In this document: positions 7,011 to 33,005 of the stretch, in pieces | Layout of the letters: the number at the start of each line of letters is the position of its first letter | Numbering within the stretch: the first letter of the stretch is position 1 | Notes under the pieces: model-generated | What the model was told of the DNA's origin: nothing | What the model saw: the letters and a program-made list of their open reading frames with translations, nothing else | Databases searched by the model: none | Position numbers and translations under genes: made by a program | Assembly (NCBI GenBank): GCA_017459845.1 | Contig: JAFUCF010000031.1 | Location: forward strand, 1 to 45,504 | Source: Candidatus Saccharimonadota bacterium | GTDB taxonomy: Bacteria > Patescibacteriota > Saccharimonadia > Saccharimonadales > Saccharimonadaceae | Length of the DNA: 45,504 nucleotides | Reading direction: 5' to 3'

Positions 7011-8942
7011 ATGAACACCGATAAAATCCGTAATTTTTGTATCATCGCCCACATCGACCACGGCAAATCCACCCTTGCCGACCGCATGATGGAGATAACC
7101 GGCACCGTAGCAAAGCGCGAAATGAAAGCGCAGCTTTTAGATAGTATGGAACTAGAGCGCGAAAAGGGCATCACCATCAAGCTCACACCAGTTCAGATGA
7201 ATTACAAAGGTTATGAGCTAAACTTGATTGACACCCCCGGCCATGTGGATTTTTCTTACGAAGTGTCGCGTAGCCTCCAAGCGGTAGAATCTGCCATTTT
7301 AGTAGTTGATGCCACGCAGGGTATTCAGGCCCAGACGCTCGCCAACGTTTATCTCGCGATTGAACAAGATTTATATATCGTACCAGTTATTAATAAAATA
7401 GACCTCCCCGCCGCTGATGTTGAAAAGGTGCAAAATCAGATTATTAATCTTCTTGGTTGCAAAAAAGAAGATATTATCGGCGTGTCTGCCAAGACAGGCC
7501 TAAACGTAGAAAAAGTCTTAGACGCGATTATTGAAAAATGCCCCAGCCCCAAGCGGGATAGTGTGATAGGCTCTGCTCTGAACAATAAAGAGATTTTTCC
7601 CCGGGAAACTACAACATCTGCGGACCTGAATGCGCGAAAGTCCGCGCTGAAGGTCCGCCCAGATGTTGTAGTTTCTAATGGGCGAAAAATCTCCCGTTCA
7701 GAACAGAGCCTATCACCTATCCCGCTTAGAGCCTTAATCTTTGACAGCTATTTTGATGACTACCGCGGCGTCGTACTCTACGTCCGCATAATGGACGGGG
7801 AATTACCAAAGAACGCCAATATCAAAATGATGGCCACGGATACTAACGGCATCGCCCTTGAAGTTGGCAAATTAAAACCGGCCATGCAGCCACAAGACAA
7901 ACTCTCAGAAGGTGAAATCGGGTACATCGTAACCAACCTAAAAACCACTCGCGAGGCAAAAGTGGGCGATACGGTAACGCTTGCTAAAAACCCCGCCAAG
8001 ACACCACTACCTGGCTACAAAAATGTCTTGCCTTTTGTTTATGCGGGCTTTTTCCCAGTCTCAAACGACCAGTACAAAGATTTGAAAGAGGCAATAGAAA
8101 AACTCGCCCTCTCGGATTCGGCCCTTCAATACGAGCCGGAGAACTCCCCGGTTTTAGGCTTTGGTCTTAGAATTGGGTTCTTAGGGTTACTCCATATGGA
8201 TATTATTAAAGAGCGTTTAGAGCGCGAGTTTAAACTAGACCTTGTCGTCACTAACCCTAGTACTAATTACGAGGTAACTTTGGCTGATGGTAGCAACATA
8301 GAAATCAAATCCGCCGCCGATCTCCCAGACCAATCCCAAATCTTAGAAATACGCGAGCCATGGGTAAAGGGCGAAATCATTGTCCCAAAAAGTATGATTG
8401 GTAACGTCTTAAATCTCATCGTAGAAAAGCGTGGCCGCCAGACTAATTTGTCTTACATTGAAGACCGCGCTGTAATTGATTTCGAGGCGCCAATGGCAAA
8501 TCTTCTAACGGATTTTTACGACCAACTAAAATCCACCACTTCTGGCTATGCTAGCTTTAATTACGAGTTGTCTGACTATCGCGCCGAAGATTTGGTGCGT
8601 GTAGATTTTCTCGTGGCTGGCCAGAAAATTGATGCGCTCGCCATCATGTGCCATCGCCAAGAGGCGGATAGTATCGGCCGGGAAGTTACCAAAAAGCTTA
8701 AAGAAGTCATCCCGCGCCAGAGCTTTGAAGTGGCTCTGCAGGCGGCAATTGGCGCCCGCATCATCGCCCGCGAGACGATTGGCGCTTACCGCAAAGACGT
8801 GCTTGTTAAAATCCACACCGGCGACCGTGATAGAAAGGCCAAGCTTCTAGAAAAACAAAAGCGCGGCAAAGCCCGTATGAAACGCTTTGGCAAGGTAGAC
8901 ATCCCATCTGAGGCTTTCACGGTTATGCTAAAGCGTGACTAG
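7011..8942 (+). CDS. lepA: Elongation factor 4 (LepA) with in-frame repeat insertion
   Basis: 643 residues; the family is about 600. EF4 is a ribosome-bound GTPase that acts on stalled or mis-translocated ribosomes. The G1 motif AHIDHGKST is at 13-21, DTPGHVDF and NKID follow, then domain II (from ALIFDSYFDDYRGVV), the EF-G-like domains III/V and the LepA C-terminal domain ending KRFGKVDIPSEAF. The extra length is residues about 181-239, encoded by palindromic repeat A1, precisely between the G domain and domain II. Family members there read straight from PPKGD to PLxALIF. The frame is intact on both sides, so the protein is probably made with the insert. Confidence 0.96.
   Translation: MNTDKIRNFCIIAHIDHGKSTLADRMMEITGTVAKREMKAQLLDSMELEREKGITIKLTPVQMNYKGYELNLIDTPGHVDFSYEVSRSLQAVESAILVVDATQGIQAQTLANVYLAIEQDLYIVPVINKIDLPAADVEKVQNQIINLLGCKKEDIIGVSAKTGLNVEKVLDAIIEKCPSPKRDSVIGSALNNKEIFPRETTTSADLNARKSALKVRPDVVVSNGRKISRSEQSLSPIPLRALIFDSYFDDYRGVVLYVRIMDGELPKNANIKMMATDTNGIALEVGKLKPAMQPQDKLSEGEIGYIVTNLKTTREAKVGDTVTLAKNPAKTPLPGYKNVLPFVYAGFFPVSNDQYKDLKEAIEKLALSDSALQYEPENSPVLGFGLRIGFLGLLHMDIIKERLEREFKLDLVVTNPSTNYEVTLADGSNIEIKSAADLPDQSQILEIREPWVKGEIIVPKSMIGNVLNLIVEKRGRQTNLSYIEDRAVIDFEAPMANLLTDFYDQLKSTTSGYASFNYELSDYRAEDLVRVDFLVAGQKIDALAIMCHRQEADSIGREVTKKLKEVIPRQSFEVALQAAIGARIIARETIGAYRKDVLVKIHTGDRDRKAKLLEKQKRGKARMKRFGKVDIPSEAFTVMLKRD
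7551..7727 (+). repeat. Palindromic repeat A1, in frame inside lepA
   Basis: A 177-bp near-perfect palindrome centred at about 7639. The outer arms pair AAGCGGGATA with TATCCCGCTT, then TGATAGGCTCTG with its complement. The inner arms pair GAGATTTTTC and GAAACTACAACATCTG with copies on the right. The apex is GCGC-GAAAGTCC-GCGC. Its translation contains NKEIFPRETTTSADLNAR and KVRPDVVVSNGRKISRSE. The same core occurs in pheT (19888-20056) and after tRNA-Leu (32690-32820). It resembles Rickettsia palindromic elements in behaviour, not in sequence. Confidence 0.9.
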
Positions 8943-9005
8943 ATACCGTAATTTTAACATGGGTGACTTTCATGGAAGGGCCTGTGTTGAAATTACTCGC
9001 GGCAT

Positions 9006-9118
9006 GGCGAACAAATGCCTTTTTCGAAGGGGGTGCGGAGTTACGACGAGCATTAGCGCCGCGCCCCCGCAACGGCGGGCGGCGCGGACGCGCCCCGAGA
9101 AAAACGGCATTGTTCGCC
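9006..9118 (+). repeat. Palindromic repeat B1
   Basis: A 113-bp palindromic unit between lepA and the kinase-like gene. GGCGAACAAATGCC...TTTTTCG on the left pairs with CGAGAAAAACGGCATTGTTCGCC-type sequence on the right. The centre is a GC-rich hairpin (GCGCCGC against GCGGCGC, about 9056-9085). It differs from copy B2 (11665-11777) at one base. No gene is encoded. Confidence 0.9.
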
Positions 9119-11651: not shown

Positions 11652-11664
11652 TTAATTACGACAT

Positions 11665-11777
11665 GGCGAACAAATGCCTTTTTCGAAGGGGGTGCGGAGT
11701 TACGACGAGCATTAGCGCCGCGCCCCCGCAACGGCGGGCGGCGCGGACGCGCCCCGAGAAAAATGGCATTGTTCGCC
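11665..11777 (+). repeat. Palindromic repeat B2
   Basis: 113 bp, identical to B1 (9006-9118) except one C-to-T change in the right arm. It sits between the DUF4956 gene and the carbohydrate-binding gene, inside what looks like one operon. The hairpin could weaken transcription or protect RNA ends. Confidence 0.9.
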
Positions 11778-19139: not shown

Positions 19140-21902
19140 ATGAAAATTAGTCTAAACGAAATTAAAAAATTAGTACAAGTCCCAAAAGATATTGATGATA
19201 AAGAGCTTATCCGTCTTATCGGCGCACGTCTCGTAGAAGTAGAGGAGGTAGATGATTGGTCCCCTAAATGGGCATTTATCAATATTGTCCGGGTAGAATC
19301 TTGCGAGCCAATCCCAGATACTCATCTCCATCTTTGTATGGTTGATGGTGGCCCACAACAAGGCGGGCTAGTACAGGTAGTCTGTGGTGCGCCAAACGTT
19401 CATGCTGGCATGCTTGCTGTTTGGATTGCCCCTGGCGCCATTATCCCAGCTACCTATGGTAATGAGAATATTAAAATCGACAAACGTAAACTCCGCGGCT
19501 ACGAGTCTTCCGGTATGCTTGCTGCTGCAGATGAGCTGGGCCTAGGCGAAGACCACGGTGGTATTATAGAAATTAACCCAGAGATGGAAATTGTAGACGA
19601 GGGGAAGATACGTAAAATTCGCCCAGGCGACAGCTTCGCAGATGCCTTTGATCTTTGGGATGTAATCCTAGACATTGAAAACAAATCCCTTACTCACCGC
19701 CCAGATTGTTTTGGTCTTGTGGGCTTTGCCCGTGAAGTAGCCGGAATTCTCGGCGTAAAATTTGATGAGCAATCCGCAATAGACTACATCCTTACAAGCC
19801 CAGAACATAACGCTCGAGGCCTAAAGAGTTCTCCGAGCAATAAAGAGCAAGCTGTTGCCAATCATCTGCTTGCGGACGCGACAGATAACGCTCAAGGGCC
19901 AAAGAATTCTCTGAGCAATAAAGAGATTTCTCCCCGGGAAACTACAACTTCTGCGGGCCTGAGTGCGCGACGGTCCGCGCCGAAGGTCCGCCCAGATGTT
20001 GTAGTTTCTAATGGGCGAGAAATCTCCCGCTCGGAGAACCCTTTGGCCTTGAGCGTGGAAATTGAGGATGTAGAAATCTGCCCACGTTATTCTGCCGCTG
20101 TAGTCGATTTTACTGACGCCCCGCGCTCAGAATACTTCACGAGAGACGATATCTTCTTAATTAAAGCGGGTATGCGCCCAATTTCGCCAATTGTCGATAT
20201 GACTAATCGCATTATGCTTATGACCGGCCAGCCACTCCATGCTTTTGACTACGATAAATTTGTGGCTGTAGGCGGCTCAGATGCGCCAAAGATTGTTATT
20301 CGTACTGCAAAGGCAGGCGAGAAACTAGAGCTTTTAGACGGTAAAGAAATTGAATGTGATGAAAACGATATTTTAATTACATCAAACAATATACCAGTGG
20401 CGCTTGCTGGCGCCATGGGCGGCAAAAATACGGATATAGACGAAAAGACTAACCGTATTATTTTAGAATCCGCTACCTTCTCGCTTTATCATCTCCGCAA
20501 AACCCAAATGAAGCACGGGATTTTCTCTGAGGCGATTACTAGATTTACCAAAGGCCAGCCAGCCGGCCAAACTTTAGGCGTATTAGAAGCAGCCGTTTAT
20601 TCTCTCGGCGTAGAGCCACAAGAGGTTATAGATTGCTACCCAAGCCCAGCAGAACCTACGCAGATAGAAGTCTCTTGTAGCGACATCAACGCCTTACTCG
20701 GTACTGATTACTCCAAAGACCTCATCATAAAAACCCTTGAAAACGTCGGCCTGGTAGTTGAGCAGGCTAGTCAGGCTGGGAGTCGTGCGCATGAGCAAGC
20801 TGTTGCTAGCCATCTGCTTGCGGACTATGCGCAGGTTACGACCGAGCATAAGCGCCGCACCCCCGCGACGGCGGGCGGTGCGGACGCGTGTCCGCAAGAG
20901 ATGGCTAGCCAGCTTGCTACCCTAAATGTAATAGTACCATACTGGCGCACCGATTTACACATCAAAGAAGACATCATTGAGGAAGTTGGCCGTTTACTTG
21001 GCTTTGATAACATCCCAATAGACTACCCTATCCGGCCATTCATCGGAGCCACCGAAGATCCAATGTTAGCCCTGAAAAACCGCATCCGCGATATTCTGTC
21101 AGACCGTCTAAACGCCCACGAAGTCTTGACCTACTCTTTTGTGTCTAAAGCGCTTCAAGAAAAAGCCGGAGAAGATTCTAAAGATTCTTACGAAATCGTC
21201 AATTCCATCTCCCCAGAGCTTCAGTGCTTCCGCCAGTCTATTACTCCAAGCCTATTAGAAAAGGTTTACGAAAACCAAAAGGCCGGCTACAAAGATTTTG
21301 CGCTTTACGAGATTAACCAGGTTTCCAAAAAATCCTACGGTCTCACCAATGAGGAGGTGCCTGTCATGAAAACCAATCTAGCGCTCGTCGTCACGGGCGA
21401 TTACTACCACGCAAAGGCTTACTTTTCTGAGCTTTTCAACCAGTTAGGTATTTCTATAGATATCGTGAGCAACGAGGAAAGCCAGCCTGTAGAGTTAGCG
21501 CCAAGTATGCTCAAGAAATTTAAGTTACAAGGCCCGGTATCTTACTTTGAGTTTGCGCTGGATGATATTGTTGACGTTTCCCTAGAACACGCGGCGAAGA
21601 ACCTTCGCTTCTCGCGTTTCCCATCTGTTAGCCGTGATGTCACGTTTAAGGTAAAAGAGAGCACGCAGTATGCCGATGTCTACCAGCCACTGGACCAAGC
21701 TTTAGCTAAGACTGGGTTGATTTACAAATTAGAGCCAGTCTCCATTTATGAACCTAAAGAAAACCTTGAAAAAACCAAGAATCTCAGCTTCCACATTACC
21801 TTATGTAGCGAGGACAAGACCTTGAATGGCTCAGAAATCTCTGATATAATGGACAAAGTTACTAATAAGACCTGTCAGGCCGCCGGTGGGGAATTAATCT
21901 AA
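19140..21902 (+). CDS. pheT: Phenylalanyl-tRNA synthetase beta subunit with two in-frame repeat insertions
   Basis: 920 residues against about 790-800 in the family. Visible domains: N-terminal, the tRNA-binding OB-fold (about 40-150), B3/B4 (about 300-480, RPISPIVDMTNRIMLMTGQPLHAFD), B5 (about 505-640, VPYWRTDLHIKEDIIEEVGRLLGFDNIP), the catalytic-like fold, and the C-terminal ferredoxin-like anticodon domain (FSRFPSVSRDVTFKV). Insertion 1 (about 223-305) is repeat A2 with fragments of A and B. Insertion 2 (about 552-593) is repeat B3, inside the B5 domain between GLVVE and LNVIVPYWR. Removing both gives normal length, and the frame is kept throughout. GGAGGAG at the end of pheS is the ribosome binding site. 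Confidence 0.95.
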   Translation: MKISLNEIKKLVQVPKDIDDKELIRLIGARLVEVEEVDDWSPKWAFINIVRVESCEPIPDTHLHLCMVDGGPQQGGLVQVVCGAPNVHAGMLAVWIAPGAIIPATYGNENIKIDKRKLRGYESSGMLAAADELGLGEDHGGIIEINPEMEIVDEGKIRKIRPGDSFADAFDLWDVILDIENKSLTHRPDCFGLVGFAREVAGILGVKFDEQSAIDYILTSPEHNARGLKSSPSNKEQAVANHLLADATDNAQGPKNSLSNKEISPRETTTSAGLSARRSAPKVRPDVVVSNGREISRSENPLALSVEIEDVEICPRYSAAVVDFTDAPRSEYFTRDDIFLIKAGMRPISPIVDMTNRIMLMTGQPLHAFDYDKFVAVGGSDAPKIVIRTAKAGEKLELLDGKEIECDENDILITSNNIPVALAGAMGGKNTDIDEKTNRIILESATFSLYHLRKTQMKHGIFSEAITRFTKGQPAGQTLGVLEAAVYSLGVEPQEVIDCYPSPAEPTQIEVSCSDINALLGTDYSKDLIIKTLENVGLVVEQASQAGSRAHEQAVASHLLADYAQVTTEHKRRTPATAGGADACPQEMASQLATLNVIVPYWRTDLHIKEDIIEEVGRLLGFDNIPIDYPIRPFIGATEDPMLALKNRIRDILSDRLNAHEVLTYSFVSKALQEKAGEDSKDSYEIVNSISPELQCFRQSITPSLLEKVYENQKAGYKDFALYEINQVSKKSYGLTNEEVPVMKTNLALVVTGDYYHAKAYFSELFNQLGISIDIVSNEESQPVELAPSMLKKFKLQGPVSYFEFALDDIVDVSLEHAAKNLRFSRFPSVSRDVTFKVKESTQYADVYQPLDQALAKTGLIYKLEPVSIYEPKENLEKTKNLSFHITLCSEDKTLNGSEISDIMDKVTNKTCQAAGGELI
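19809..19880 (+). repeat. Fragments of repeats A and B next to A2 (in pheT)
   Basis: 19809-19847 (AACGCTCGAGGCC... to AATAAAGAG) copies the left arm of A2. It is followed at 19845-19877 by GAGCAAGCTGTTGCC...CTGCTTGCGGAC, which copies the left arm of B3 (20794 on). Then A2 starts again. This records nested insertion or arm duplication, still in frame. Confidence 0.75.
19888..20056 (+). repeat. Palindromic repeat A2, in frame inside pheT
   Basis: A 169-bp palindrome. The core is closely similar to A1 (GAGATTTCTCCCC, GAAACTACAACTTCTG, apex GCGC-GACGGTCC-GCGC). The outer arms ACGCTCAAGGGCC and GGCCTTGAGCGT are unrelated to the A1 arms yet complementary to each other. Encodes NKEISPRETTTSAGLSAR and KVRPDVVVSNGREISRSE. 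Confidence 0.9.
20794..20918 (+). repeat. Palindromic repeat B3, in frame inside pheT
   Basis: 125 bp. The outer arms AGCAAGCTGTTGCTAGCCAT and ATGGCTAGCCAGCTTGCT are complementary. The core (20836-20887) matches B1/B2 (GTTACGA, GAGCAT, AGCGCCGC, CCCCCGC, ACGGCGGGCGG, GCGGACGCG). The arms differ from those of B1/B2. It encodes HKRRTPATAGGADAC. Confidence 0.85.
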
Positions 21903-32555: not shown

Positions 32556-32642
32556 CCCCGAGTGGCGGAATTGGTAGACGCGCTAGCTTCAGGTGCTAGT
32601 GTCCGCAAGGACGTGCTGGTTCAAATCCAGTCCCGGGGACCA
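32556..32642 (+). tRNA. tRNA-Leu (anticodon CAG), CCA encoded
   Basis: A class II tRNA of 87 nt. Acceptor CCCCGAG/CCCGGGG has one A-C mismatch. D-arm TGGCGGAATTGGTAGACGC; anticodon stem CTAGC/GCTAG with loop TTCAGGT (CAG); variable arm GTGTCCGCAAGGACGT; T-loop TTCAAAT. The 3' end is GGGGACCA. TATAAT at 32540-32545 (TTATAAT context) is the likely promoter. Repeat A3 begins inside its 3' terminus. Confidence 0.95.
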
Positions 32643-32881
32643 TTGGCTTTAGACGTTTCCTATATGGTAGTAGCTATATGCTTTAGGTATTTTCTAGATA
32701 ATAAAGAGATTTTTCCCCGAAAAAATACAACGCTTACGGGCCTGAAGCGCGAAAGTCCGCGCTGAAGGACCGACTAAGTGTTGTATTTTTGAATGGGCGA
32801 AAAATTTCCCATCTAGAAAATATCTAAAGCATATAGCCACAGGCGGCTAGCGCCCGCAAAGTATCTAAAGCTAATGGTCCC
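32636..32881 (+). repeat. Palindromic repeat A3, abutting tRNA-Leu
   Basis: The core at about 32690-32820 matches A1 (AATAAAGAGATTTTTCCCC, apex GCGC-GAAAGTCC-GCGC at 32747-32762, GGGCGAAAAAT). The outer arms pair GGGACCATTGGCTTTAG (32636-32652, starting in the tRNA) with CTAAAGCTAATGGTCCC (32865-32881), plus AGCTATATGCTTTAG with its complement. The right side has an unpaired GGCGGCTAGCGCCCGC stretch. No gene is encoded here; this is the main content of the 400-bp gap before pgi. Confidence 0.88.
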
Positions 32882-33005
32882 TCGTTTTGAATGGGCGAAA
32901 ACCTCCCATCTAGAAAATATAGCCACAGGCGGCTAGCGCCCGCAAAGTATCTAAAGCTAATGGTCCCTCGTTTTGAATGGGCGAAAAATCTCCCATCTAG
33001 AAAAT
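32833..33005 (+). repeat. Two tandem 86-87 bp units derived from the right arm of A3
   Basis: 32833-32918 and 32919-33005 differ by one inserted base and a few substitutions. Each holds ATAGCCACAGGCGGCTAGCG, CTAAAGCTAATGGTCCCTCG and GAATGGGCGAAAA...CATCTAGAAAAT. They are partial copies of the A3 right half, and the array ends at the pgi promoter. Confidence 0.9.

Follow-up and report, generated by a model that had tools for sequence, protein, structure and literature searches.

The palindromic element at the 3′ end of tRNA-Leu

The window, the whole stretch of DNA analysed here, is 45,504 nucleotides long and is contig C20 of a 737-kb Saccharibacteria genome. The host genus includes Ca. Nanosyncoccus alces, and its named relatives are mostly from ruminant guts. 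All features described below are on the forward strand. A tRNA-Leu gene with anticodon CAG lies at 32556–32642 (ARAGORN; Rfam RF00005). It overlaps the palindromic element A3, which consists of a left arm (32636–32699), a family A hairpin core (32700–32810) and a right arm (32811–32881). The core matches that of element A1 at 84% (E 2.5e-28). The outermost 7 nt of the left arm, GGGACCA (32636–32642), are the native 3′ end of the tRNA by the ARAGORN placement. The outer end of the right arm (32865–32881) reads CTAAAGCTAATGGTCCC; its reverse complement GGGACCATTAGCTTTAG matches 32636–32652 (GGGACCATTGGCTTTAG) at 16 of 17 positions. In the repeat search the arms run inward up to the core for 30 nt with 93% complementarity, and the whole element folds at -134 kcal/mol. 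The same search detects a tandem duplication of the right half of A3 at 32822–32987, with a period of 86 and 96% identity. Among tRNA-Leu relatives that share the downstream gene, the nearest is in genome G141. There the right arm is absent, and the best match to it (10 of 17 positions) equals that of shuffled sequences. The coordinates of the two arms in the preliminary description, including the 7 bases inside the tRNA, prove exact, and its claim that the right arm copies the left flank agrees with the G141 site.

Family A elements

Five copies of the family A core are present in the genome, in lepA, pheT, dnaX and rsmD and 3′ of tRNA-Leu, and the frame stays open in the four genic copies. 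In lepA (7011–8942) the A1 core is in frame at 7584–7695. Its arms are at 7551–7583 and 7696–7727. In pheT (19140–21902) the A2 core is in frame at 19917–20028 and is preceded by the left arm at 19891–19916. The outer part of the A2 right arm (20029–20055), CTTTGGCCTTGAGCG, is homologous to native pheT of genome G090. This G090 gene is empty. It has a native 7-bp repeat, CTCGAGG/CCTTGAG, at the position of A2, and its right flank matches the A2 right arm. A second, outer copy of the A2 left arm lies at 19812–19838; its sequence CGCTCGAGGCCTAAAGAG resembles the reverse complement of the G090 native right flank. The left arm is thus found twice in 19812–19916, and the intervening stretch resembles the left arm of element B3 (19845–19877 and 20793–20825 are 91% identical). 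In the dnaX copy of this genome (L002), the right half likewise recurs in frame several times, in units of SRSENPPSPASQ. In rsmD there is perhaps a native seed of 5–9 bp.

When the A copies are aligned, the core is conserved and the arms are unrelated. Arm–arm duplexes at all five loci have energies of -44 to -71 kcal/mol for arms of the same locus and -14 to -29 kcal/mol for arms of different loci. Outside this genome, no family A element was found among 60 genomes of the genus.

Family B elements

Family B is unrelated to family A. Its aligned cores form a covarying three-way junction, with double changes in 15 of 24 pairs, and the covariance model of the family (R1) finds matches in 38 of 40 genomes, with 1–26 copies each. 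In the window, B1 (9006–9118, arms GGCGAACAAATGCC/GGCATTGTTCGCC) is intergenic after lepA and B2 lies at 11665–11777. B3 (20793–20918) is in frame inside pheT, with the B core at 20821–20894. B1 and B2 are 99% identical over 115 nt (9004–9118 and 11663–11777) and have their arms in common, so arms can also travel along with the element. The preliminary description held that B1/B2 versus B3 shows the same rule as family A. The arms of B3 do differ and are self-complementary, while the arms shared by B1 and B2 depart from the rule.

At 64 B loci the two arms pair at -28.1 kcal/mol with each other and at -8.6 kcal/mol with arms of other loci, and the own partner is the best in 56 of the 64. Arm length at these loci has a median of 19 bp and a narrow 10–90% range of 13–22, so arms of about 20 bp are the rule. 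Two sets of loci, L266/L267/L268 and L277/L278/L279, each within one genome, have identical 76-bp cores and unrelated arms (self -24 to -32, cross -5 to -14 kcal/mol). In genome G004, the arms of three identical-core loci are ggcggatgatgatgcc/ggcatcgccatccgcc, atagaatttttgctc/gagcaaaaattctat and gaaacgccatcgcttgattc/gaattaagtgatggtgtttc, and G026 has another triplet of identical cores with differing arms. At identical-core loci the arms are already 16–21 bp long and have 2–3 mismatches. On inspection, no arms are shared between the listed loci within G004, G026, G007 or G048. The locus-specific, self-complementary arms first noted in the window are therefore real and far beyond chance, as confirmed by the duplex energies of the five A and 64 B loci. 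The self/cross tests on lepA linkers, A loci and B loci exclude chance as the source of arm pairing. An assembly artefact is unlikely because the frames are open and the elements recur in many independent assemblies, although most of the genomes are metagenome-assembled.

In relatives, inspection of the proteins identifies leuS, truB, tlyA, dnaX, obgE, der, tgt and a diacylglycerol-kinase-like gene as hosts. One leucyl-tRNA synthetase gene of G004 holds two separate in-frame insertions with identical cores (L266 and L267). In G151 (C1 73076–73278) a B element has a further hairpin in its P3 loop, a nested insertion. Further families, provisionally named C, D and E, are found at similar sites. 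Sister species can have other core families (B, C, D, E) and other arms at one genomic site (L307, L258, L315, L309, L304 and orthologues).

Filled and empty sites

The tlyA gene is empty in G161 (L458), where it reads ..TCAGTAAGACTA GAATTATCTTGTATC CCTGAC.., and filled in G048 (L302), where it reads ..TCAGTG GGAACACAAGATAGTTCC (core) GGAACTATCTTGTGTT CCAGAC... The G048 right arm GAACTATCTTGTGTT, which precedes CCAGAC, is homologous to the empty G161 allele (ELSC), with 12 of 15 positions matching in register, and the left arm is an inverted copy of this right arm. The net gain of G048 over G161 is 96 nt, that is 76 of core plus 20. The flanks of the two genes are only 72–77% identical, and the G161 allele may instead have arisen by deletion. 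L311 and L326, two further filled alleles of tlyA, likewise end in ELxCA, and the left arm of each follows its own right arm.

Three sister species, 91–93% identical over their aligned regions, provide clean filled/empty pairs at four sites, and none of these four empty sites has the inverted repeat. One of the four is tlyA of G151, whose outer left arm is a mirror of native sequence in the right flank (CGGAAG/CTCCCG). At the other three, G156_C8 24832, G156_C2 57612 and G156_C2 60085, neither arm is recognizable in the empty relative. The preliminary description had named empty sites with neither pattern as evidence against its reading; these three sites are of that kind, while tlyA (G161/G048 and G151) is not. 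A repeat of 15–20 bp is absent from most empty lepA and tlyA alleles, from the G141 tRNA-Leu site and from the four clean empty sites. The empty truB alleles have a native repeat of 5–9 bp where the outer arms of filled L286 and L298 lie (in L436, CAGATTCAA/TTGAATCTG). With pheT and truB on one side and the sites without repeats on the other, repeats that pre-date the element occur in some places, as short seeds and not as 15–20 bp arms. Insertion into pre-existing inverted repeats, the second proposal of the preliminary description, thus survives as native seeds of 5–9 bp in truB, pheT and perhaps rsmD, and fails at most empty sites. No direct target-site duplication is seen in the filled/empty comparisons, in which the arms blur the boundaries.

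Near-perfect coding palindromes with no core occur at element sites of relatives (L454 in tlyA of G061; L128 and L051 in lepA). They could be precursors or excision remnants. By a crude score there is no excess of such palindromes among short linkers, L454 alone exceeding all shuffles.

The lepA linker

The lepA gene was recovered from 166 of 174 genomes of the genus. The linker between the GTPase domain and RALIFDS occurs in 102 distinct forms, of which 51 contain a long hairpin insert, 41 are short and 10 fall in between. The inserts come from different families and lie in either orientation and in several frames; all preserve the reading frame of lepA. In the tree of lepA flanks, filled alleles, empty alleles and different inserts are interleaved, so insert turnover would be fast or alleles would be exchanged. 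Closely similar inserts in distant branches of this tree (e.g. L030, L033 and L044) suggest allele transfer between species.

The first 15 nt of the linker, which are the codons of E-x-x-P-x, pair with the right end of the same linker at a mean of -15.2 kcal/mol and with right ends of other species at -8.0 kcal/mol. For self versus cross pairing in 21-nt windows, the permutation p is < 1e-4. This pairing bears out the earlier remark that the outer arm in lepA includes native-looking codons. The ends of the arms are concentrated a few nt or less from the conserved borders. The native P at codon 4 is retained in 37 of 41 empty and 34 of 51 filled alleles. Both ends have drifted from the empty alleles (left 0.45, right 0.28), and the empty alleles are themselves slightly self-complementary (-8.9 versus -7.5, p 3e-4). 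For a link between element orientation and the flank that stays native, retention of the proline gives p 0.04; other measures are not significant, and we claim no such link.

In G004 the core in lepA does not differ from other cores of that genome, but it has 4 differences in 76 positions from the orthologous G037 insert, whose arms are the same. Among more distant lepA inserts, both sides have changed in 21 pairs and one side in 45. The same element is found in opposite orientations at one lepA site, with different outer arms, in L063/L143 and L043/L040. Both orientations at one site are as expected from the spacer inversion outlined for template switching in PMC8604942. L226 in lepA and L423 in truB of G004 are short remnants resembling decayed elements.

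Mismatches and decay of the arms

On the element strand of 37 oriented loci, the arm mismatches are 28 G·T and 3 A·C. The G·T:A·C ratio is 14:3 where the element runs with the host gene, 9:0 where it runs against it and 5:0 where it is intergenic or no long frame was found. In lepA the element strand has 24 G·T and 9 A·C, the gene strand 51 G·T and 59 A·C, and on the gene strand the bias reverses with the orientation of the element. There is no bias (11:10) in a third set, which comprises 26 oriented loci of other genomes, and the G·T excess on the element strand is present in two of the three data sets. Since the bias tracks the element strand and not the gene strand, it does not come from host mRNA structure. 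The bias is compatible with misincorporation, or with tolerance of wobble pairs, on a single folded strand of DNA (or RNA). Selection on the structure of the host transcript, which would keep the arms paired, can be set aside as very improbable: the coding strand folds strongly and the mismatches on one strand are rich in G·T, but the bias follows the element strand (24:9 against 51:59 in lepA), new changes are unbiased, and empty alleles are common and apparently viable.

Between close sister species, 453 arm pairs show 43 one-sided changes and no compensated change, and ongoing homogenization of the arms is not observed in these pairs. In a smaller recount, the new arm changes are 4 G·T and 4 A·C. 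As the new changes are one-sided and unbiased, the G·T bias seems to date from the birth of the arms, which then seem simply to decay. Growth of the palindrome after insertion, one of the two proposals of the preliminary description, loses support here, because identical cores already carry arms of 16–21 bp and the 43 one-sided changes have no compensated counterpart. Full arms on identical cores together with one-sided changes point to copying of the arm at insertion or soon after it.

A proposed model of insertion with fold-back copying

In the reading that we prefer, a mobile core would insert and, in a step coupled to insertion, about 20 nt of one flank would be copied by single-strand fold-back; we regard this reading as about evenly poised between right and wrong. 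Families A and B would be small non-autonomous mobile hairpin cores of about 112 and 76 nt, which would settle in spacers and tolerant gene loops. At or soon after insertion, the element strand would fold on its own hairpin and a DNA polymerase would extend it, copying about 15–22 nt of one flank before rejoining the other flank. Such fold-back, or intra-strand template switching, would have the core as its primer. The product would be a core between inverted, locus-specific copies, an inverted flank duplication replacing the direct target-site duplication. Native inverted repeats of 5–9 bp could act as the switch-back point. Purifying selection would retain only in-frame, stop-free products and would limit the reach of the arms into conserved codons. 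Later, arms would decay by point mutation, cores would be lost, inverted or swapped, and sites would be re-used.

The repeated cores, the locus-specific arms, the lack of the repeat at several empty sites, the G·T bias in two of three data sets and the one-sided decay are observed; copying by fold-back, the tie between this step and insertion, and the enzyme are what we infer from them. Insertion-coupled fold-back would explain why arms are locus-specific and nearly constant in length, why one of them is native, and why mismatches show a strand bias and decay is one-sided. Template switching is known to produce a perfect stem in a single event (PMC8794818), which speaks for the model. That one arm is native and the other its inverted copy is supported at two genes and by statistics, the cases being tlyA (L302/L458), A3 at tRNA-Leu and the lepA pairing; the three empty sites lacking both arms show neither. 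Those three sites, the movement of B1 and B2 with their arms and the unbiased third mismatch set count against fold-back copying. The drift of both lepA ends and the low identity of the tlyA flanks (72–77%) also count against it, as do the 2–3 mismatches in the arms of identical-core loci.

Pre-existing arms are an unlikely alternative to fold-back copying. Here the element would insert only into the loop of an older hairpin or inverted repeat, perhaps recognized on single-stranded DNA. This would explain the strand bias, since tolerance of G·T on the element strand fits hairpin recognition, and it would explain the seeds, which lie exactly at the outer arms of L286/L298 in empty truB and as CTCGAGG/CCTTGAG in G090 pheT. 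The slight self-complementarity of empty lepA alleles and the coreless palindromes L454, L128 and L051 also agree with it, although the latter may be excision remnants. It would not explain most empty sites: most lepA and tlyA empty alleles, the G141 site and the four clean sites have no 15–20 bp repeat.

Repeated quasi-palindrome correction by template switching could instead convert the flank slowly outward from the core until selection stops it at conserved codons. The clustering of arm ends a few nt from the conserved lepA borders, the 21 distant lepA pairs changed on both sides against 45 changed on one, and outer stems that fade into imperfect pairing with the native flank are what such growth would leave. 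It is nevertheless decidedly unlikely, as armless copies are rare, identical-core copies already have full-length arms and close species show no compensated change among 453 arm pairs.

A whole mobile hairpin could also come with its arms from a donor site, with cores later homogenized or swapped between loci. The shared arms of B1 and B2, the G004 lepA core that equals other G004 cores and differs at 4 of 76 positions from the G037 insert with the same arms, the different core families at one site in sister species and the three empty sites with neither arm are in its favor. As a general account it is improbable, because native codons recur in the outer arms in lepA, tlyA and tRNA-Leu and the inspected loci of G004, G026, G007 and G048 share no arms. 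Carried-in arms with core exchange may operate in addition to fold-back copying.

If fold-back copying is right, it would be a new mode of insertion, in which a structured single strand integrates and self-primed fold-back writes an inverted flank copy of about 20 nt ("inverted target duplication"). We put this forward tentatively and consider it less probable than not to hold in full. Under it, with the same reserve, each copy would make its terminal repeats from its target, in frame in essential genes of ultrasmall bacteria.

Comparison with known elements

REP/REPIN elements are short, dispersed, non-autonomous palindromes mobilized by Y1 (RAYT) transposases, and the elements described here are also short, dispersed, palindromic and non-autonomous. 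Mobilization by REP/RAYT or IS200/IS605 was rejected: Y1_Tnp is found in only 8 of 170 genomes and not in this one, whereas family B is in 38 of 40. MITEs are small and non-autonomous, with inverted ends, and their terminal repeats are common to all copies. The elements here resemble them in size, lack of autonomy and inverted ends; unlike in MITEs, the outer arms differ by locus, and no terminal repeat common to all copies is found, identical cores having unrelated arms. At gathering score, the Rfam covariance models detect only tRNA in the window. No description of such elements in Saccharibacteria turned up in a literature search limited to openly readable papers.

Rickettsia palindromic elements (RPEs) are palindromes of about 100–150 bp, in frame in unrelated and often essential genes, with several families per genome, and they encode a conserved peptide (PMC10969869). 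The likeness to RPEs is one of behavior, as small in-frame palindromic repeats in unrelated ORFs (lepA, pheT, dnaX and rsmD; LeuRS, truB, der, obgE, tgt and tlyA in relatives). Here, in contrast, both core orientations and different peptides occur at one site, the arms lie outside the repeat family and the B core is a three-way junction. A conserved peptide or single reading frame is not seen in the lepA inserts, which are in both orientations and several frames. In nematomorph mitochondria, inverted repeats lie in coding genes with both arms coding, and template switching has been proposed (PMC6649704). Those palindromes stay perfect and lack a mobile core that is repeated, whereas here imperfect arms of about 19 bp surround a repeated core. 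In quasi-palindrome or intra-strand template switching, as outlined in PMC8604942 and PMC8794818, an arm is turned into the inverted copy of its partner, and the spacer can be inverted. This is a mutation process and not a mobile element, and alone it does not explain dispersed cores. On this comparison RPEs are the nearest kind by behavior, nematomorph palindromes the nearest by proposed mechanism and template-switch mutation the nearest process.

The usual mobile elements are defined by the ends that they carry. Here the core is carried and the ends are apparently made from each target. Target-made ends would be a new signature for recognizing insertion and would offer a natural experiment in fold-back DNA synthesis. 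Within one genus of more than 100 species, identical codon positions are filled in some alleles, empty in others and swapped in others again. How coding palindromes arise and decay, a matter of long debate for Rickettsia and nematomorph mitochondria, can thereby be tested directly. Judged from these alleles, LepA, LeuRS, TruB, TlyA and others apparently tolerate 25–50 extra residues in specific linkers.
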